A DNA stretch of 64,000 nucleotides, from assembly GCF_026210795.1 (NCBI RefSeq), contig NC_089432.1:3224001-3288000 (forward strand), written 5' to 3'. The position numbers and the translations under genes are program-made. Below, one piece after another: positions 27,925 to 48,010 of this stretch. The notes under the pieces were generated by a model, which saw nothing but the letters and a program-made list of their open reading frames with translations, was not told where the DNA came from and did not search any database. Source of the stretch: Rhizophagus irregularis. Lineage: Eukaryota; Glomeromycota; Glomeromycetes; Glomerales; Glomeraceae. Each line of letters begins with the position of its first letter. The stretch's first letter is position 1.

Positions 27925-30461
27925 ATGCAAAATAACGAAAATATAAATGAATGGACAAATTGGATTGAGGAGGCTATTATTAAACAACATATTAAATATT
28001 ATGAGTATGAAAATTTTAAAAATGTTCAAGAAGTTGGTTCCGGAGCATTCGGAAAGGTTTTTCGTGCAAATTGGAAAAATTTTGGTCATTTAGCATTAAA
28101 ATCATTTTATAATCTAAACGATATTACCTTAAAAGAAATTGTTAATGAAGTAATCAAATATTTTAATTTCATTTTTTTTTAAAAAAAAAATTATTTTTTC
28201 GTATACTCTTTTTCGTATTTATTTACTTATTTATTTTCTTAATTTTCTAATTATTATGCGTTTATAATCTAGCTTAAACTTCAACGAGAAGTAGATTTTC
28301 ATGACAATATTATTCGCTTTTATGGAATCACAAAATTTGAATCAGGTATTTGTAAATATATAAATATCATCATAATAAATAAAATTATGTTTATTTATTT
28401 TTTTTATTTATTTTTTTTTTTGTAAAAACTAATAATCGATTCTTTCTTTTTTATCAGAAAATAAAATTGACCAAACAAAGAATTATTTGTTAGTAATGGA
28501 ATACGCTAACGGTGGTACCCTTCGTGACTATTTAAACGAAAACTTCAATAGACTTAGTTGGGATGATAGGTATAATTTAGCTCATCAATTAGCTTGTTCT
28601 GTATTATGTCTACATGATGAAGGGATCGTTCACCGAGATTTGGTATTTTTTTTATAAAGTATTTAAAATATTTTACGAACTAAATTAATATTATTTGTAT
28701 ATTATAATAGCATTCTTGTAATGTGTTGGTTCATAAGAAATCCATCAAGTTGGCGGACTTTGGATTATCAAAAAGAATTGATGAAGCATCGAATTCACAG
28801 TCAAAGTTACTTGGTATGGTTCCCTATATTGATCCGAAAGTATTGATGAATAGCAATAATTTAAAATTAAATGAGAAGAGCGATGTATATAGTATCGGCG
28901 TTTTATTATGGGAAATATCAAGTGGGAAACCACCATTTCATGAAGAGAAAAATAGGATTGGCTTAATCTATGATATTTCACAAGGACGAAGAGAAGAAAT
29001 TATTCCTGATACTCCTAATGATTATTCAAATCTTTACATTGGTAAATACTGTTTCATTATATTATTTGTTTTACTTATTAAAGTCATTATTTTAACCAAA
29101 TTCTTTAATTATTAGAATGTTGGAATAATGAACCAAGTAAACGACCAAATATGCATGAGGTTGTTAATAGATTAGGAGTATTTATTCCAGATTCAAATAG
29201 CACAACAATTGATCAACAGAATGACATATCTGATCAAACTTATCCTACGCCAAATGAAAATCTAACTCCAAATAGTGCAGGAAATTCATCACATGGAGAA
29301 TTATCCAAAATGATCCAAAATTTCACTAATATGAATACAAGTGAAATAGATAGTATGTCTACAAAAGAACAAATTAATGAAAATATTTCGTCTGAGAATT
29401 ATTTTAGCATTGTGATTAACGAAATAGTTGATCTTATTTTTAAAGAAAACATTAAAGATAATAGGAATGTAAAACAGCATGTTATTGATTATTTGAATAA
29501 TCATAATGTAAATTCAAAAGAAATTTATAATTGGTTATTAAATAATCAAAACAATTCAGAATCTATTTTTTTACTTGGTTATTTTAATTATGTGGGAATT
29601 GGATCAACCAAAGATGAAGAGAAAGCATTTAATTTATTTATTAATGCATCAAAACAGGATCATACATTAGCACAATATTGTGTTGGACTATGTTATCAAT
29701 TTGGAAATGGAATTACAAAAAATGAAAAACTTGCATTTGAATATTATGAAAAAGTAGCTAATAAAGATTATGCAAATGGACAATTTAAATTAGGTTGGTT
29801 TTATAAAAATGGAGTAAGTGTCAATAAAGATTTAAAAATGGCTGTGTATTGGTATGAAAAAGCTGCAGATAATGGACATTTAAAAGCTATGCATAACCTT
29901 GGCCTCTCATATGAAAATGGAGATGGTGTTGATAAAAATAATCAAAAAGCTTTTGAATTATTCAAACAATCAGCTGAAGGAGGACATTCAGGTGGAATAA
30001 TGATGTTAGCTTATTGTTATGGTAGTGGAATTGGAATTAATATTGATAGACAAAAAGCAGTTGAATTATATCAGAAAGCTGCAAATTTAGGAAGTAAGGT
30101 AGCTCAATATAATCTTGCAAACATGTATAAAGATGGAGATGGTGTTGATAAAAATAATCAAAAAGCTTTTGAATTATTCAAACAATCAGCTGAAGGAGGA
30201 CATTCAGGTGGAATAATGATGTTAGCTTATTGTTACGATAATGGAATTGGAATTAATTTTGATAAACAAAAAGCAGTTGAATTATATCAGAAAGCTGCAA
30301 ATTTAGGACATGAGGTAGCTCAATATAATCTTGCAAACATGTATAAAGCAGGAGTTGGGATTGAAAAAGATTTAGATAAAGCAATTTATTGGTATGAACA
30401 ATCAGCTAAACAAGGATATATAGATGCTCAAACTAGATTAAAAGAACTCAAGAAAAATTAG
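27925..30461 (+). CDS. Protein kinase with expanded Sel1-like repeats (copy C)
   Basis: Five exons: 27925-28149, 28273-28345, 28458-28642, 28711-29041 and 29116-30461, about 719 residues. The kinase motifs equal those of copy A (VGSGAFGKVFRANW, HRDL, DFGLSK, PYIDPK) with one residue missing before LALKSF. The solenoid has about eight Sel1-like repeats instead of six: a block of 72 residues, beginning DGVDKNNQKAFELF, occurs twice in tandem and keeps the frame (216 bp). No disabling change is seen. Function as for A: a soluble kinase with a protein-binding repeat domain; the longer solenoid could alter partner choice. Confidence 0.88.
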
Positions 30462-33179: not shown

Positions 33180-35327
33180 ATGTCTAATACTGAACTTAAA
33201 GAAGTTATTGGTAATTCAAATGAATGGATTAATTGGATTGATGAATCTATTGAGAAAGAACAAATTAAATATTACGATTATAAATATTTTAATAATATTC
33301 AAGAAATTGGTTCTGAAAGTATTGGAAAGGTCTATCGCGCAAATTGGAAAAATTCTAATGATTATTTAACGTTAAAATCTTTTTTTAAATTTGATATCAC
33401 GGCAAAGGAAATTGTTAATGAAGTAACTATAATATAAATATTTCTATCTTTATAATATGATAATGTACATTGCTTTTCTAATTACAATTTTTATTTGTTT
33501 TTTAGTTTAAACTTCAGCGTGAAGTGGATTTTCATGAAAATATAATTCATTTTTATGGTATTACAACAGGTACAGTATTACAAAAATATTATAATCATTA
33601 TTTTATAAAGATGAATAAAATCTAAAATTATTATTTTTTTTTTTTCAAAAGAAAACCAAAGTGATAATTCAAAAAAATATTTGATAGTGATGGAATATAC
33701 CGATAGTGGTACCCTTCGAAATTATTTAAGTGAACGTTTTGAAAATCTCACTTGGAATGATAAATTAAATCTGGCATTTCAATTAGCTGATGCTATATCA
33801 TATTTACATGATAAAGAAATCATGCATCATGATTTGGTAGGTTATATACAGTACCTATTTACGACTTAATATATTACATTGTAAGATTATATACTTAATA
33901 CAATTATTTATTTTATTTATTATATTTAATAATAGAATTCAAATAATATTTTAGTTCATAAGAATACAATCAAATTGGCTGACTTTGGATTGTCAAAAAG
34001 GATTAAAAAATTACTTAATCTAAACTTATTTGAAATGGTCGCCTACATTGATCCACAAATGTTTAATAGAAAAGATGACAGCAATAACCAAATACAAGTA
34101 TATTCATTAAATAAAAAGAGCGACATATACAGTATTGGCGTACTTTTATGGGAAATATCTAGTGGACGACCACCTTTTTATAACAAACCAGATGTTGTTG
34201 ATTTGGCTACAGAAATATTACAAGGTCTCAGAGAATCATCTGTTCCAAATACACCCAAAGATTATGTAAAAATATATACTGGTAAAATACAAATAAATTT
34301 AATTATGATTAATTATAATAGTATTATTATTATTTACAGATTTATTTTATTATATTTAGATTGTTGGAATAATGAACCGGATGATCGTCCAAATATCAAC
34401 AAAGTTGTTACTAAATTAAACGTAATTATTTCTAATGTAGAAGATATTCAATTATCAAGTGAACTACTTAAATCAAATATTGAAGTACCTGAAAATACTA
34501 TTATTAATGGGAAAATATCTCAAATTATTCAAAATTTTAATAAGATAAATGTAAAAGAAATAAAACCTTCAATTTCATCAAATTTAATTATAGATGATTT
34601 TGAATTAATAGTTATTGAGATGATTCTTCTTCTTGAAAATATAGTAATAGAAAGAAAAAAATATGAAATTATTATTTATCTTAATAATCATAATATAACT
34701 ACAAAAGAAATTTATAATTGGTTATTAAATGATCAGAATAATTCAAATTCAATTTTTTTACTTGGAGTATTTAATCATTTTGGTATTGAAATTAATATTA
34801 ATAATCAAAAAGCATTTGAATTATATCAAAATGCAGCAAATTTAGGAAATGTATTTGGAATAACTAGTTTAGGATATTGTTATAATAAAGGTGTTGGAAC
34901 TAATATTGATGAACAAAAAGCATTTGAAATGTATCAAAAAGCTGCAAATTTAGGAAATCCACGTGGAATGAATAATTTAGGTACTTGTTATATAAATGGA
35001 TTTGGTTCTATTATTGATAATAATAAGGCATTTAAATTATATGAAGAAGCTGCAAGTTTAGGAAATATACTTGGAATAAGTAATTTAGGTTATTGTTATG
35101 AAAATGGTATTGGAACTAATATTAATGAACAAAAAGCATTTGAATATTATCAAGAAGCAGCAAATTTAGGTGATAATGAAGCTCAATATTATCTTGCTTT
35201 AATGTATGAAAATGGTGAAGTGGTTAAAATGGATATAAATCAAGCAATTTATTGGTATAATAAATCTGCTGAACAAGGAGATCTAGATGCTCAAATTAAA
35301 TTAAATGAATTATTACTAGATTTGTAA
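33180..35327 (+). CDS. Diverged kinase-Sel1 protein (copy D)
   Basis: Five exons at the same positions as in A to C: 33180-33422, 33506-33569, 33652-33836, 33936-34281 and 34360-35327, about 601 residues. It has the same order (N-terminal NEWINWIDE, kinase, linker, about five Sel1-like repeats) but is much diverged. The glycine loop reads IGSESIGKVYRANW, with the middle glycine replaced. The lysine is in LTLKSF. The catalytic loop is HHDLNSNNILVH (Arg of HRD replaced by His, Asp kept). DFGLSK is kept and the APE region is AYIDPQ. Activity is therefore uncertain. The last intron (78 nt) has no stop and keeps frame, so its retention would add 26 residues. Confidence 0.85.
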
Positions 35328-36092: not shown

Positions 36093-37309
36093 TGGCCCGC
36101 CGTAAGCACGGAAAGGTTGATGAAAAATCATCATGGTGCATGATGATTTTTCACCATGTTGCATGATGGCTTTTCATCATGATTAATGATGACTTTTCAC
36201 CATAATTTATGATGACTTTCACCATGTAACGAATAATTTTCATCATGTTTCCTAATACAGAATTGTTCAATATCCAAAAATAGCTTACCATGCCACTGGT
36301 TTTTTATATTGCAAATTTAGTAAATTTTAAGATTTTCTTTTACAAATTTGGAAATTTACCGATCCTTTTATGGAAAGCCGTCCTTGACAAAAGGTTGATG
36401 TCCAAACATCATGAAATATAATGTTTAGACATCATGATGGTATGTCTAGACATCATGTTTGTATGGAAAGCCGTCCTTGACAAAAGGTTGATATCCAAAC
36501 ATCATGAAATATAATATTTAGACATCATGATGGTATGTCTAGACATCATGTTTGATATATGTAGGATGATGTTTGTACATTATTTAACATGATGTGAAAG
36601 ACATCAACCGACATGATGTCTAGACATCATGCTGATCAAATTACCAAATATAGTATATTTATGAGTTACACAAAATAAAATTTACTATATTTGGTAACAT
36701 GATGTCTAAGACATCATGTCGGTTGATGCTTGAGCATCATGTTGAATGATGTACAAACATTATTCTACATATATCAAACATGATGTCTAGACATTATCCA
36801 ACATGATGTCTGGATATCAACCTTTTGTCAAGGATGGCTTTCCCTATGTTTGATATATGTAGGATGATGTTTGTACATTATTTAACATGATGTCTAGACA
36901 TCGTGCTGATCAAATTACCAAATATAGTATATTTTATAAGTACACAAAATAAAATTTACTATATTTGATAACATGATGTCTAAGACACATTATCCAACAT
37001 GATGTCTGGATATCAACCTTTTGTCAAGGATGGCTTTCCATATGGTAAGCTATTTTTGGCTATTGAACAAAACATGATGAAAATTATTTGTCACATGGTG
37101 AAAATTATTCATCTTATGGTAAAAAGTCATCATAAATCATGATGAAAAATCATCACTAAACATGGTGAAAAGTCATCACATAAACATGGTGAAAAGTCAT
37201 CATTAATCATGATGAAAAGTCATCATGCAATATGATGAAAAGTCATTATGCAACATGGTGAAAAATCATCATGCATCATGATGATTTTTCATCAACCTTT
37301 CTGTGCTTA
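36093..37309. mobile_element. Large palindromic TIR element (MULE-like target site), built of CATCATGATG repeats
   Basis: The 10-mer TATCAATGTA occurs at 36083-36092 and 37310-37319, fitting a 9-11 bp target duplication of Mutator-like elements. The arms begin TAAGCACGGAAAGGTTGATG (left, after 10 extra bases TGGCCCGCCG) and end with the mirrored CATCAACCTTTCTGTGCTTA. Each arm is filled with variants of ATCATGATGAAAAGTC. Further in, GCCGTCCTTGACAAAAGGTT occurs twice and its complement twice, and an ACCAAATATAGTATATTT hairpin occurs twice. No transposase is encoded. Confidence 0.65.
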
Positions 37310-42260: not shown

Positions 42261-43532
42261 AGGTGAATATAACTTACTATCTTTATCATGGTGACCGATT
42301 AAAAAAAAAAAAAAAAAAAAAATTTATACTTGAAAAAATAAAAAATATGCTCATAAACAATGCGATTTTTAAGATTCCAATGGTTTTGGTATAGGTGACA
42401 ATTTCACGCTATTTACACATTAAATATAATTAGGAACTATTTATTTTTGTTTTCATAAAATCTTTAACATGCAGTGAAGTTGAGAGAAGTGTAAGTGTTT
42501 AGAACTTTTAAGCAAAACTTGGTATGATTTTGTTTTTTTTTTGCCAATAGTAAAGAAATTTATAATTGATTTTAAAGTTAGGTGAGAGTGGGGAAACTTT
42601 TTGTGAATTTTTAACTCCTTATCATTAAGATTTTTATTTTAGTATCATTAGAATCATCTTGGTTTAAAGCTTTTTTTTTTGATTTAATATTTATTTTTCA
42701 AAAAAAAATATTATTTTTGTAACTTATGGTTAATATTGGGCAAAATATAGATAATTTTGCTATTAAATACTATCATCAGATTATACTTAAAATAGAGCTT
42801 GCAGTTAAGCATAACTTTGCTTAATTTAAACAAGTGGATTGTTTACTGTGATTTGTAACATAGTAATTATTGCACATTTGATTTTTTTTTATTTGATTAT
42901 ACTAAGCAATAAATTAATATGTATATTCATTTTAGCATGTACTACATTAAAATAGAATAAAGTTAGAAAACTTTAGTTTATCAAGAAGAAAAAATAACTG
43001 ATGCATTATATTTAAAATAAAAGTCAACAAATATAGATTAGCTATTGAAATAAGTATAAAAATTTTACATTATCATTGGAAATGGTTTTATATTATTATT
43101 TTGATAATTTATAACTCATAATTGGAAAAGTTATAAAAAAAGATTTATTAAAATTACAAACTAAGAAACTTGTAAAATATTTACTATTCTAATCTTAGTG
43201 TTTTAAATAATTCTAAGTATAATAAAAAAAAAGTGAATATAAATATATAAGCTAAAAAAAAAAGAATTATTTAAATTACAAACTAAGAAACTTGTAAAAT
43301 ATTTTACTACTCTAGCCTTAGTGTTTAAATAAATTTAAAAAGAATAAAATGAAAAACAATTTCTTTTGAATGTGTAATATCAAATATCACTTAAAAATTA
43401 AAACTATAAATTTTTTAAAAACAAACAATGATTAGTTAATTTTCATCTGTTTTAATATCTAAATAATTAAATATTAAATAAAATTAATTTCATATAAATA
43501 ATTTGAAAGATTAATTTTTTTTATATACTATA
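42261..43532. other. AT-rich DNA between convergent kinase genes
   Basis: No gene. It lies between two genes that point towards each other, so both 3' ends are here. A ~122-bp tandem duplication lies at about 43140-43330. Confidence 0.5.
43140..43330. repeat. Tandem duplication, ~122-bp period
   Basis: AATTACAAACTAAGAAACTT and the following ~50 bp, including CTTAGTGTTT, occur at about 43153 and 43275 with few differences. Confidence 0.7.
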
Positions 43533-44679
43533 TTACATACCTAATGACTTCAAATTAACCATACATCCACTCAAATCTTCACTTGCTATCATTTCATTCA
43601 ATTTTTTACTAGTAAAATCAAGTAAACGACTTGTATAACATGCTTGTGGATGTGATTCAGTAACAAGATTGTTGTTATGCTGCCCAATTGGTGCATTTAT
43701 AAATTCCATAATGTTGCTTTTTAATTCTTCACTGTCTTCATAAGAATTGAAAATCCAATTTTTAATAATTTTTAACACTTCTTTAGAAGATGGTCTTTTT
43801 GATGAATCTTCATTCCAACATTTTTTCATTAAATCTACATAACATTGTGGAGTATTTTCAAGAATTTCAGGACGTACACCCTTACAAATACTCAAACTAA
43901 GTTGAATATCATGTGCTCTATTATTAAATGGTGGTATCCCGGATGTAAGTTCCCACATAATCATAGAAAAACTATATATATCACTAGCTGGAGTATAAGA
44001 TTTGCCTCTTAAAACTTCAGGAGCCATAAATGGAATTACACCATAAATATCATACTTTTTCAAAAATGATTTTACAGGTTGGCATAATCCTAAATCACTA
44101 ATATAAAATTTATCCTTATTGCCATCATCATTATGATTTAAAATATTACCATCATGAAAATCACAATGAATAAGATTTTTTTCATGTATATCACTAAGTC
44201 CAGAAATAATTTCGTACAACATATATAATTTTTGATTCCAATTATTTTTTACTATTCTTGTTAAATTTTCTCTTAAATTACCTTTATTTGCATAATCCAT
44301 TACTACCATATATTTTGAAATATTTGGATCTTCTGTAAATCCATAAAAAAATATAATATCATCCGAACTTGAAACGCTTGTATGATATTTCCACTAAAAA
44401 AAATAATAATAATTTATTAATTTTAGTTTAAATTAAAAATAAAAAATAATATACTATCATACTTCTTTTAAAAATTCATTTAAATTTTCATTCAAATTCT
44501 TGTGACATTTAAGAATTACTTCTTCATCTTTATTATTATTTAACCAAGTAGCTTTATATATAGTACCAAATCCTCCTTCATTAAGATATTCAACATTCTT
44601 AAATTTGTTATAAGGAATCCATCTTAATTTTTTTTCAAGAATAAAATCATCTATAATTGTATTTCCACTTTTCCCATAT
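43533..44679 (-). CDS. Protein kinase (TKL-like orphan family), 5' end unresolved
   Basis: Two clear exons on the - strand: 44679-44463 and 44393-43533. The first starts after TTTATAG in phase 2 and encodes GKSGNTIIDDFI, RWIPYNKF and the glycine loop LNEGGFGTIYKATW with VILKCH. The second encodes GFTEDPN, VVMDYANKGNL, the catalytic loop HCDFHDGNIL (HRD Arg replaced by Cys), ISDLGLCQ (DFG replaced by DLG), PFMAPEVLRG and KKCWNEDSSKRP. It stops at 43533, or could splice at GTATGT a few codons earlier. Because the first visible exon begins at an acceptor in phase 2, the start codon must lie upstream, beyond the intron-like array at 44745-47860. A candidate first exon is at 47915-48010. HCD/DLG variants occur in active members of this family, so it is not necessarily a pseudokinase. 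Confidence 0.8.
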
Positions 44680-44744: not shown

Positions 44745-47700
44745 AAAACAAATTATTACTTACTCTAAAATTTAAATAGGCATTTAACGTAATATAATAT
44801 AAGTCTTAATTTTTGGATAAATACATATAACAACCTATAATTTACAACTTACCAACTAAAGTAACAAATATTTTTCAAATGAAAGAATTCAGTTATCAAA
44901 TAAATATTATATAAAATATATAATGATAGAGATACTTACAAGCTAGATCATAAATAATTTTAAATAAAAAAATTAGTTAGTTTAAATTATATGAGCGTAA
45001 ATATTATAACAATAAGTAATAATAGAATTAAAATAATTAACTTACGATCTAAAAGAATTTAGTTAGTTTAAATTATATGTAAATATTATATAAGCAAGTA
45101 ATAATAGAATTAAATAAATAACTTACTCACTATATTTTTAAATAATTTTTTAAATAAAGATTTAGTTAGTTTAAATTATATGTAAATATTATAACAATAA
45201 GTAATAATTGGATTAAATAAATAACTTACAATCTATTAAATAAATAAAGAAATTTAGTCAGTTTAAATTATATGTAAATATTATAACAATAAGTAATAAT
45301 AGAATTAAATAAATAACTTACAATCTATTTAATAAATAAAGAAATTAGTTAGTTTAAATTATATGCAATAATAGAATTAAATAAATAACTTATAACTTAC
45401 GAACTATTAAATAAAGAAATTAGTTAGTTCAATTATATGTAAATATTATAACAATAAGTAATAATGGAATCATTAAATAAATAACTTATAACTTACGAAC
45501 TATTAAATAAAGGAATTAGTTAGTTTAAATTATATGTAAATATTATAACAATAAGTAATAATTAAATTAAATAAATAACTTACACCCTATATTATTTAAT
45601 AATTTTTTAAATAAAGAAATTGGTTAGTTTAAATTATATGTAAATATTATAACAATAAGTAATAATTAAATTAAATAAATAACTTACGATCTATTAAATA
45701 AATAAAGAAATTAGTTAGTTTAAATTATATGTAAATATTATAACAATAAGTAATAATTGAATTAAATAAATAACTTACGATCTATTAAATAAATAAAGAA
45801 ATTAGTTAGCATAAATTATATGTAAATATTATAGCAATACTAAGTAATAATAGGAATTAAATAAATAACTAATAACTTACGAACTATTAAAAAAGAAATT
45901 AGTTAGTTTAAATTATATGTAAATATTATAACAATAAGCAATAATAGAATTAAATAAATAACTTACACCCTATATTATTTAATAATTTTTTAAATAAAGA
46001 GATTAGTTAGCCTAAATTATATGTAAATATTATAATAATAAGTAATGATAGAATTATAGAATTAAATAAATAACTTACACCCTATATTATTAATAATTTT
46101 TTAAATAAAGAAATTAGTTAATTAAAATTACATGTAAAAAATAATAGAATTAAATAAATAACTTACGATCTATTAAATAAATAGTTAGTTTAAATTATAT
46201 GTAAATATTATAACAATAAGTAATAATAGAATTAAATAAATAACTTACCATCTATTAATAAATAAAGGAATTAGTTAGTTTAAATTATATGTAAATATTA
46301 TAACAATAAGTAATAATTGAATTAAATAAATCACTTACACCCTATATTATTTAATAATTTTTTAAATAAAGAAATTAGTTAGTTTAAATTATATGTAAAT
46401 ATTATAACGACATGTAATAATTAAATTAAATAAATAACTTACGATCTATTAAATAAATAAAGAAATTAGTTAGTTTAAATTATATGTAAATATTATAACA
46501 ATAAGTAATAATAGAATTAAATAAATAAACTTACTATCTATTAAATAAATAAAGAAATTAGTTAGTTTAAATTATATGTAAATATTACAACAATAAGTAA
46601 TAATTGAATTAAATAAATAACTTACCATCTATTAAATAAATAAAGAAATTAGTTAAAATTATATGTAAATATTATAACAATAAGTAATAAGAATTAAATA
46701 AATAACTTACTATCTATTAAATAAATAAATTAATTAATTAGTTTAAATTATATAAAAATATTATAACACTAAGTAATAATAGAATTAAATAAAAACTTAC
46801 AATCTATTAAATAAATAAAGAAATTAGTTAGTCTAAATTATATGTAAATATTATAACAATAGTAATAATAGAATTAAATGAATAACTTACACCCTATATT
46901 ATTTAATAATTTTTTAAATAAAGAAATTAGTTAGTTTAAATAGTAATAATTAGAATTAAATAAATAACTTACGATCTATTAAATAAATAAAGAAATTAGT
47001 TAATTTAAATTATATAAAAATATTATAACAATAAGTAATAATTGAATTAAATAAATAACTTACGATCTATTAAATAAATAAAGAAATTAGTTAGTTTAAA
47101 TTATATGTAAATATTATAACAATAAGTAATAATAAAATTAAATAAATAATTTACCATCTATTAAATAAATAAAGAAATTAGTTAGTTTAAACTATATGTA
47201 AATATTATAACAATAATTAATAATAGAATTAAATAAATAACTTACGATCTATTAAATAAATAAAGAAATTAGTTAGTTTAAATTATATGTAAATATTATA
47301 ACAATAAGTAATAATAAAATTAAATAAATAATTTACCATCTAATAAAGAAATTAGTTAGTTTAAATTATATGTAAATTTTATAACAATAAGTAATAATAG
47401 AATTGAATAAATAACTTACATGCTATATTATTAATAATTTTTTAAATAAAGAAATTAGTTAGTTTAAATTATATAAAAATATTACAACAATAAGTAATAA
47501 TAGAATTAAATAAATAATTTACCATCTTTTAAATAAATAAATAAAGAAATTAGTTAGTTTAAATTATATGTAAATATTATAACACTAAGTAATAATAGAA
47601 TTAAATAAATAACTTACCGTCTATTAAATATATAAAGAAATTAGTTAGTTTAAATTATAAGTAATAATAGAATTAAATAAATAACTTACCATCTATAAAA

Positions 47701-47860
47701 TAATTTTTTAAATAAAGAAATTAGTTAGTTTAAATTATATAAATAATATAAATATAGATATCATATAACTTACACCCTATAGTATTATTAATTATTAATT
47801 AGTTAGATATAAAGATAATATAAATGCAAATTATATATATATTACTTACAATCTAGTTAA
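44745..47860 (-). repeat. Tandem array of ~35 complete intron-like units separated by 3-nt 'microexons'
   Basis: Units of about 70-115 bp repeat GTAAGTTATTTATTTAATTC, ATAATATTTACATATAATTT, AAACTAACTAATTTC and TTTATTTATTTAATAG (- strand order). These are a consensus donor, an AT-rich body, a CTAAC branch site about 25 nt from the end, a T-rich tract and a TAG acceptor. In 34 units the acceptor AG is followed by exactly three bases and then the next GTAAGT (GTAAAT in four). The triplets vary: ATC 8, GGT 6, ATG 6, ATT 4, TTC 3, ATA 2, and TTG, CTT, TGA, CAT and ACG once each. The GGT units (and the CAT and TGA units) belong to a longer subtype with TAATAATATAG-like acceptors. The last unit (44758-44766) has a 1-nt gap. 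The array lies directly upstream of the - strand kinase exon at 44679. Confidence 0.85.
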
Positions 47861-47914
47861 ATATAATTAGTTGAACTATGTAAAATATTAAACATGAATT
47901 ATTTATAAATAAAA

Positions 47915-48010
47915 ACTTAATATTTCAGTTTGAGTTTGTTTGATACCTTTAATACGTTGATCCATTACTATATCAAAATTCTCCCTAATTGGAAAAGAAG
48001 TAAATATCTT
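47915..48010 (-). other. Candidate 5' exon upstream of the intron-like array
   Basis: The - strand is open from about 48010 with an ATG at 47965, encoding MDQRIKGIKQTQTEIL, then runs into AAGTTTTT where the first array unit would start. Composition is protein-like compared with the array. It could be the first exon of the kinase gene at 43533-44679, but no consensus donor is present, so the link is unproven. Confidence 0.3.

Follow-up and report, generated by a model that had tools for sequence, protein, structure and literature searches.

The window analysed here is a 64,000-nt stretch of the genome of the fungus Rhizophagus irregularis (contig NC_089432.1, positions 3,224,001 to 3,288,000 of the forward strand). 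On its minus strand a protein kinase gene, spanning 47965 to 43533, carries a tandem array of intron-like units that lie exactly three nucleotides (3 nt) apart. The array follows a short 5' coding exon and precedes the kinase domain. The triplets between these units are probably exons that would be spliced in order and translated in one frame, as a microexon chain. This prediction from sequence comparison draws on three observations: the reading frame is continuous through the array, stop codons are avoided between neighbouring triplets only, and the triplets are hypervariable with fixed or nearly fixed ends. The gene is best read as a member of a large family of R. irregularis kinases whose kinase domain is preceded by a hypervariable segment that such an array would encode.

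Anatomy of the array

The array contains 34 sites, of which 31 read AG-NNN-GTAAGT and 3 read AG-NNN-GTAAAT; they run on the minus strand from 47854 down to 44857. The triplets between acceptor and donor (47852-47850 down to 44855-44853) take 11 different values. An initial annotation of the window, made from the letters alone, had already counted 34 units, a constant acceptor-to-donor distance of 3 nt and 11 triplet values, and all three figures were confirmed. It had described the donor as GTAAGT and the branch site as CTAAC, which holds for 31 of the 34 donors, the other 3 being GTAAAT, and for 27 of the 33 inter-triplet introns. TTAAC (3) or CTGAC (1) was found in four others, and these branch-type motifs lie 15-38 nt before the end of the acceptor; of the remaining two introns one contains CTAAT only and the last one none of the motifs searched (counted by eye from a listing). 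The units are spaced 72-112 nt apart, with inter-triplet introns of 69-109 nt. The motif AGnnnGTAAGT occurs 31 times in the 3.1-kb array, where 0.007 occurrences are expected on the basis of 300 first-order Markov resamplings, and a single time in the rest of the window (at 42282). Chance and a simple minisatellite were rejected on the basis of this resampling and of the junction-stop test described below. An assembly error is unlikely, as arrays of this kind, or traces of them, recur at many separate loci and in public models that stem from other R. irregularis records.

After the last triplet the gap between acceptor and donor is 1 nt instead of 3 (TTTTAG/A/GTAAGT, with the A at 44764). This feature had been overlooked in the initial annotation and matters for the reading frame. 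The kinase exon that had been placed downstream of the array was recovered as two exons, at 44463-44679 and 43533-44393. A 200-aa query from the window kinase matched a public protein of strain DAOM 197198w (P0001) with 100% identity over 89% of its length, and the Pfam kinase domain is present in that protein (PF07714, E 1.1e-41; PF00069, E 3.3e-38). The intron bodies are conserved between units to nearly the same extent as the splice signals. Conserved signals alone therefore prove nothing; the caution that the initial annotation had attached to them was right for the introns. The predicted parts of the gene are as follows.

47947..47965, minus: 5' coding exon, class B, ATG...AAAG, 19 nt; ends after first codon base; MDQRIK-G
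47853..47946, minus: first intron of the predicted gene model, to acceptor CTAG
44853..47852, minus: array of 34 predicted 3-nt exons and 33 introns of 69-109 nt
47850..47852, minus: 3-nt exon ATT, identical in 25/25 first units recognised by intron start
47774..47776, minus: 3-nt exon GGT, identical in 19/19 second units recognised by intron start
47690..47692, minus: 3-nt exon ATG
47618..47620, minus: 3-nt exon ACG
47523..47525, minus: 3-nt exon ATG
47420..47422, minus: 3-nt exon CAT
47337..47339, minus: 3-nt exon ATG
47246..47248, minus: 3-nt exon ATC
47155..47157, minus: 3-nt exon ATG
47064..47066, minus: 3-nt exon ATC
46973..46975, minus: 3-nt exon ATC
46891..46893, minus: 3-nt exon GGT
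46801..46803, minus: 3-nt exon ATT
46711..46713, minus: 3-nt exon ATA
46626..46628, minus: 3-nt exon ATG
46535..46537, minus: 3-nt exon ATA
46443..46445, minus: 3-nt exon ATC
46339..46341, minus: 3-nt exon GGT
46249..46251, minus: 3-nt exon ATG
46167..46169, minus: 3-nt exon ATC
46079..46081, minus: 3-nt exon GGT
45967..45969, minus: 3-nt exon GGT
45881..45883, minus: 3-nt exon TTC
45779..45781, minus: 3-nt exon ATC
45688..45690, minus: 3-nt exon ATC
45584..45586, minus: 3-nt exon GGT
45497..45499, minus: 3-nt exon TTC
45401..45403, minus: 3-nt exon TTC
45322..45324, minus: 3-nt exon ATT
45230..45232, minus: 3-nt exon ATT
45127..45129, minus: 3-nt exon TGA, which would be a stop in the rejected whole-codon frame only
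45046..45048, minus: 3-nt exon ATC
44940..44942, minus: 3-nt exon CTT, in 16/19 units at that place
44853..44855, minus: 3-nt exon TTG, in 18/21 units at that place
44764..44764, minus: 1-nt exon A, flanked by TTTTAG and GTAAGT; brings back the kinase frame
44463..44679, minus: first kinase exon (YGKSGN...FLKE)
43533..44393, minus: second kinase exon, to TAA, assuming no further intron

One reading frame through the predicted microexons

Arrays of this kind are not confined to the window gene and occur in many kinases of this genome. A two-unit DNA query gave 277 matches in the R. irregularis assembly (146.7 Mb in 32 contigs, taken to be strain DAOM 197198). Regions of 10 kb were fetched around 26 clusters among the query matches listed, and clusters of fewer than 4 triplets, as well as sites less than 40 nt from the previous one, were dropped before counting. 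In this way 26 kinase loci, including that of the window, were obtained, with 31 arrays and 821 triplets in the refined parse. At 26 of the 26 array ends, the window's included, a match to one of the listed kinases lies 160-533 nt downstream; each of the five remaining arrays either forms the upstream part of an interrupted array or was cut by the limits of the fetched stretch.

In the window the 19-nt first exon, the 34 triplets, the single A and the two kinase exons together form one open reading frame (ORF) of 399 amino acids. Each codon in this proposed frame consists of the third base of one triplet and the first two bases of the next, and all array introns except the last interrupt codons after the first base. 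The A joined to the kinase exon (A-TTT-GGA) leads the frame into EFGKSGN. Both array ends were recognised by the script in 16 of the 31 arrays and the same frame connects them in all 16; for the remaining 15, one end was not recognised or lay beyond the fetched stretch. Two classes of 5' end could be discerned, a short exon (ATGGA...AAAG or GAAG) and an acidic exon ending in ...TKESK-G or alike, and both stop after the first codon base at a donor G/GTA, mostly G/GTATATC. The frame of the 5' exon is set independently by the acidic ORF in one class, where a public model (P0121) reads it likewise, and the donor of the class B exon is homologous to the AAAG/GTATATC of the acidic class. When the A is omitted, or a 5-nt exon AGTAA is used instead, the 5' exon and the kinase no longer share a frame. 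The proposal of a one-codon microexon chain in the initial annotation is in this respect supported by the frame, and by the stop and variability data given below, with the amendment that the introns split codons and that a 1-nt exon closes the array.

The exon length is nearly invariant: 658 of the 664 strong donors inside arrays (GTAAGT followed by TAT, CAT or CAA; 42 odd rows were inspected by eye) are preceded by a 3-nt exon. The six exceptions comprise one 2-nt exon (L017), two to three 6-nt exons (L024, L026 and perhaps L016) and two donors without a near acceptor (L009, L016). The two other frames fared worse. The third frame contains 110 stops in 767 junctions. The frame in which each triplet is a codon was rejected on account of TGA triplets and of the 5' exon being out of frame. 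TGA was found in 5 of 796 triplets in a first count, being the commonest TGN (above TGG and TGT), and in 6 of 798 in a second count, one of these at the doubtful TGA/GTGAGT site that ends array L013_0 of locus L013.

Stop codons are depleted between neighbouring triplets

A junction stop in the proposed frame requires a triplet ending in T and a neighbour after it that begins with AG, GA or AA. Among 790 adjacent junctions one such stop was found, against 12.4 +- 2.8 after shuffling the order of triplets within arrays, and none of 3000 shuffles gave a number as low. For pairs two, three and four units apart we counted 9, 15 and 15 stops versus 12.0, 11.5 and 11.1 expected, which is no significant depletion. 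Since only joined neighbours can be selected in this manner, the restriction of the depletion to adjacent pairs suggests that selection acts on neighbouring triplets as a joined series, kept in order and read in the proposed frame. The result holds for unique three-unit contexts (1 stop in 540, against 9.9 expected) and for the 41 distinct array-wise pairs with a stop-capable second triplet, of which one is preceded by a T, compared with an expectation of 30% (binomial, 8e-6). An earlier parse, for which the donor pattern was stricter, had given 2 stops in 767 junctions, one of them resulting from a missed unit with donor GTACGT. Six further loci showed no stops in 63 junctions, although with only 3 stop-capable triplets they carry little power.

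Hypervariable triplets between near-identical introns

The triplets were compared between units whose introns are identical, leaving aside the two units at either end of every array and any pair that did not satisfy the identity limits given here. Within the same array, pairs with the next 60 intron bases after the donor identical (1362 pairs) differ in their triplets in 72% of the cases. Where 60 bases on both sides are identical, 80% of the pairs from different arrays differ in the triplet (833 pairs, 160 units), with differences at positions 1, 2 and 3 in 53, 9 and 60%; for pairs from the same array (384 pairs, 211 units) this is 31%, with 17, 6.5 and 24%. Read in the proposed frame, the fast triplet positions 3 and 1 correspond to the first and second codon bases, and the slow middle position to the third. 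That middle base is T or G in 769 of 796 triplets, partly because the types of intron tail go with T or G. The codons are in consequence nearly all NNK (third base T or G), and TAG is almost the sole possible stop.

The triplets at the array ends behave differently, being fixed or nearly so (ATT 25/25, GGT 19/19, CTT 16/19, TTG 18/21). We compared the adjoining introns between arrays, choosing units by intron start and a length below 150, and one random middle intron per array. The introns after end triplets differ by 6.5-11%, versus 6.0% for the middle introns, and the triplets at those middle introns differ in 93% of the pairs. A mutational hot spot beside splice sites is unlikely, as the end triplets stand in the same AG-NNN-GTAAGT setting and are fixed or nearly so, which favours selection on the residues. 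The predicted coding positions change faster than their neutral neighbours, as diversifying selection would have it, with the qualification that the pairs are not independent and the introns may be homogenised. The pattern argues for selection on the predicted residues, and concerted evolution of the introns may contribute to it.

Public gene models and alternative readings

The array could alternatively be a single long intron that expanded as a unit containing an intron was duplicated in tandem; the inner splice signals would then be passengers and the triplets noise. We regard this as quite unlikely. The units are indeed recent and alike, with higher-order repeats, splice sites have been lost in some of them, and the related gene represented by P0121 appears to skip the array. 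P0121 was the one protein matched by a query consisting of the 5' exon and segment of locus L030, and in its model the 5' exon seems to be joined to a point immediately ahead of the 1-nt site. A long intron does not, however, predict that stops are avoided between adjacent triplets only, that triplets with fixed or nearly fixed ends are far more variable than the neighbouring intron bases, or that a shared frame runs through the 1-nt exon. The origin by tandem growth that the initial annotation had suggested is compatible with a microexon chain; as a long intron with passengers only, it is disfavoured by the stop test. We also assign little probability to the units being alternatives, with differing subsets of microexons spliced in and many isoforms per gene. 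All units are 3 nt long, so that any subset stays in frame, and their splice sites are interchangeable, yet stops that would arise by skipping are not significantly avoided (9, 15 and 15 versus about 11-12). The sliding set of alternatives that had been considered before is likewise not supported by the stop test; occasional skipping is possible.

Highly improbable, in our view, is that the triplets are whole codons followed by the 5-nt exon AGTAA, which would give a greasy segment rich in I/L/M/G and a translation start inside the array. In four public models (P0002, P0006, P0007 and P0035) such a segment is followed by LSKFGKSGN or SSKFGKSGN. Each of these models is labelled partial and lacks an initial M; annotation software, too, finds a chain of codons here, but the models do not tell which frame is in use. 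Whole codons are at odds with the TGA triplets, which are present in 5 of the 31 arrays including that of the window, and with the 5' exon of both classes, which is out of frame. They moreover require a weaker-looking donor, GTAATA, despite the overlapping GTAAGT, and leave the neighbour-dependent avoidance of stops unexplained.

Several observations weigh against the microexon chain, which we nevertheless prefer. P0121 has the same acidic 5' exon, omits the array and reads ...TKESK into EFGKSGN. The four partial models chain single codons in the other frame through the would-be 5-nt exon, and P0006, the kinase of which is 98% identical to that of locus L033, agrees with the L033 triplets at the ends only, whichever of the two frames is taken (by visual comparison). 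For 14 of the 31 arrays the predicted peptides were compared with database proteins, and none matched (0 of 1613 candidates, E<=10). The lone junction stop (ATT/AGA) lies in L014, L017 has its 2-nt exon, and some units have lost an acceptor or donor, so that not every array need be intact. The unit pairs are not independent, and concerted evolution could keep the introns alike. More than 30 consecutive 3-nt exons plus a 1-nt exon would place a severe demand on the spliceosome, and a recognition role of the product is guesswork.

Read aligners place 3-nt exons poorly. The paper on the DAOM 197198 assembly gives a 3000-nt intron limit for the minimap2 mapping of Nanopore reads (PMC10234402). The stretch that separates the 5' exon from the kinase in the window is 3267 nt and exceeds this limit, which, together with the poor alignment of 3-nt exons, may explain why the array was missed in annotation.

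Proposed mechanism and function

In the microexon chain a segment of about 10-45 residues, located between the short 5' coding exon and the kinase domain, would be encoded by 3-nt exons. With 3 nt between them, an acceptor and the donor that follows could scarcely be occupied simultaneously, and removal intron by intron is consequently the natural route. Splicing would proceed via intron definition, each NNN being fused to the growing upstream exon with the next GTAAGT at its end. The recursive ladder of the initial annotation is plausible as such a route, not as a separate outcome. As the introns are interchangeable, unequal exchange may duplicate, lose and reshuffle units with the frame kept, and the length and sequence of the segment could be changed one residue at a time. 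The pattern of differences suggests strong diversifying selection on the residues, with the ends fixed or nearly so and introns that stay alike.

The predicted kinase would bear an N-terminal segment in which R, D, Y, F, W, N, H and G are abundant. The variable segment is probably a recognition or docking element of the kinase, a guess from its position and variability. Tentatively, and with somewhat more doubt than confidence, we propose that the arrays constitute a germline-encoded variable-region system with one-codon resolution in dozens to perhaps a few hundred kinase genes, in which introns act as universal joints and recombination edits, lengthens and reshuffles a recognition segment in frame. 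Such a system could serve non-self or partner recognition in R. irregularis.

Distribution of the arrays

Among the listed kinases whose arrays were not among the listed two-unit matches, six were sampled, and all six carry arrays (the last 10-15 units were viewed). The signature of the 1-nt exon has 44 exact copies in the genome, and for 41 of them a listed kinase is located no more than 1.2 kb downstream. With at most one mismatch there are 80 matches (27 for a backward control), and the signature is present in 59 of 131 listed kinase rows. One-mismatch signatures (TTTTAGAGTAAGTTATAA or ...AATTA) are clustered at C5:3681052-3812941 and C8:4068259-4160169, with no listed kinase nearby.

A pattern blind to the intron body (three donors and two AGnnnGTAAGT steps) gave 1328 genome matches versus 23 in the control. 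The matches listed, which cover contig 1 and part of contig 2, form about a dozen clusters, some with other intron bodies. With respect to insertion in unrelated genes, all 26 fetched array ends precede kinases, while some clusters of the blind pattern have no listed kinase. AG-NNN-GTAAGT ladders with other intron bodies and no kinase among those listed were seen at C1:1383485-1385595, C1:2291971-2294320, C1:4548430-4552227, C2:19256-23445 and C2:331908-333693; these clusters may represent further kinase subfamilies or other genes.

Some arrays stood out individually. At L012 and L013 (C7:2567874-2578654) four consecutive array pieces of 23, 13, 9 and 20 triplets precede one kinase; they could belong to a single gene of over 60 microexons spread across 10.8 kb, or to a broken one. 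Foreign-looking inserts were seen within array introns of L009 (2187-2560 and 4718-5050, oriented), L031 (4318-4582) and L035, with the adjoining 3-nt exons intact. In L010 the variant donor GTACGT is common to many units of one array, a sign of intron variants spreading inside an array.

Relation to known systems

The array shares traits with several described systems and differs from each. With 34 predicted 3-nt exons in one frame, it has the many consecutive, very short, frame-keeping exons of micro-exon genes (MEG). The MEG of Schistosoma mansoni likewise contain runs of very short exons (3-81 bp) and form a family of variable proteins, but their introns reach 5 kb, their exon lengths vary and the proteins are secreted (PMC10526429). 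In R. irregularis the exons would all be 3 nt, the introns are of ~70-110 nt, near-identical and in tandem, and the product is a kinase; the likeness is one of layout only. The bicycle and megacycle effector genes of aphids likewise have many microexons, one gene more than 100, with rapid evolution and positive selection (PMC9168663). Uniform one-codon exons or near-identical tandem introns are not mentioned in the available part of that paper, and the products are putative effectors instead of kinases.

At ratchet points, as known from recursive splicing, the donor is regenerated at the acceptor and the intron is removed stepwise with no exon left. Stepwise removal would be alike here, but 3 nt are proposed to stay at each step, and acceptor and donor nowhere abut directly as AG/GT, the gap being 3 nt at 34 of 34 sites and 1 nt at the end. 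The predicted exon at 44764 has a single nucleotide between AG and GT, and the frame needs it. Frame-needed 1-nt exons have likewise been described in APC11 of Arabidopsis, where stepwise removal by intron definition and recursive splicing was discussed (PMC4674806), and in CYP621A of Fusarium, where the exon has transcript support (PMC12940212). Both are isolated single exons, while in the R. irregularis gene family the 1-nt exon would come at the end of a series of 3-nt exons.

Near-identical intron sequence is present at many loci (the 277 two-unit matches, with all fetched clusters at kinase loci), as in introner-like elements. These are dispersed among genes, unlike the R. irregularis copies, which form a stack with 3 nt between neighbours in a single place within one gene family. 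Fungal introner-like elements are likewise introns multiplied into many copies (PMC4457414), and tandem duplication likewise yields new introns, there in single events (PMC4974935). No description of one-codon-sized exon arrays of this design was found in the open-licence literature searched, which does not show their absence from print. If transcripts confirm the arrays, they would be the densest intron-exon structures known to us, with tens of consecutive 3-nt exons plus a 1-nt exon for the spliceosome to process in sequence. Introns would then serve as modular joints for protein diversification, and the arrays would offer a natural series of minimal exons for splicing research and reveal that a large gene family of an important plant symbiont has a variable region which had stayed hidden.

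Other repeats in the window

Tandem 108-bp repeats are present at 29910-30407 and 34782-35170 of the window; to judge by their wording, these may be Sel1-like repeats. A further region (36128-37284) contains tandem repeats of 21-93 bp with CATGATG-like words.

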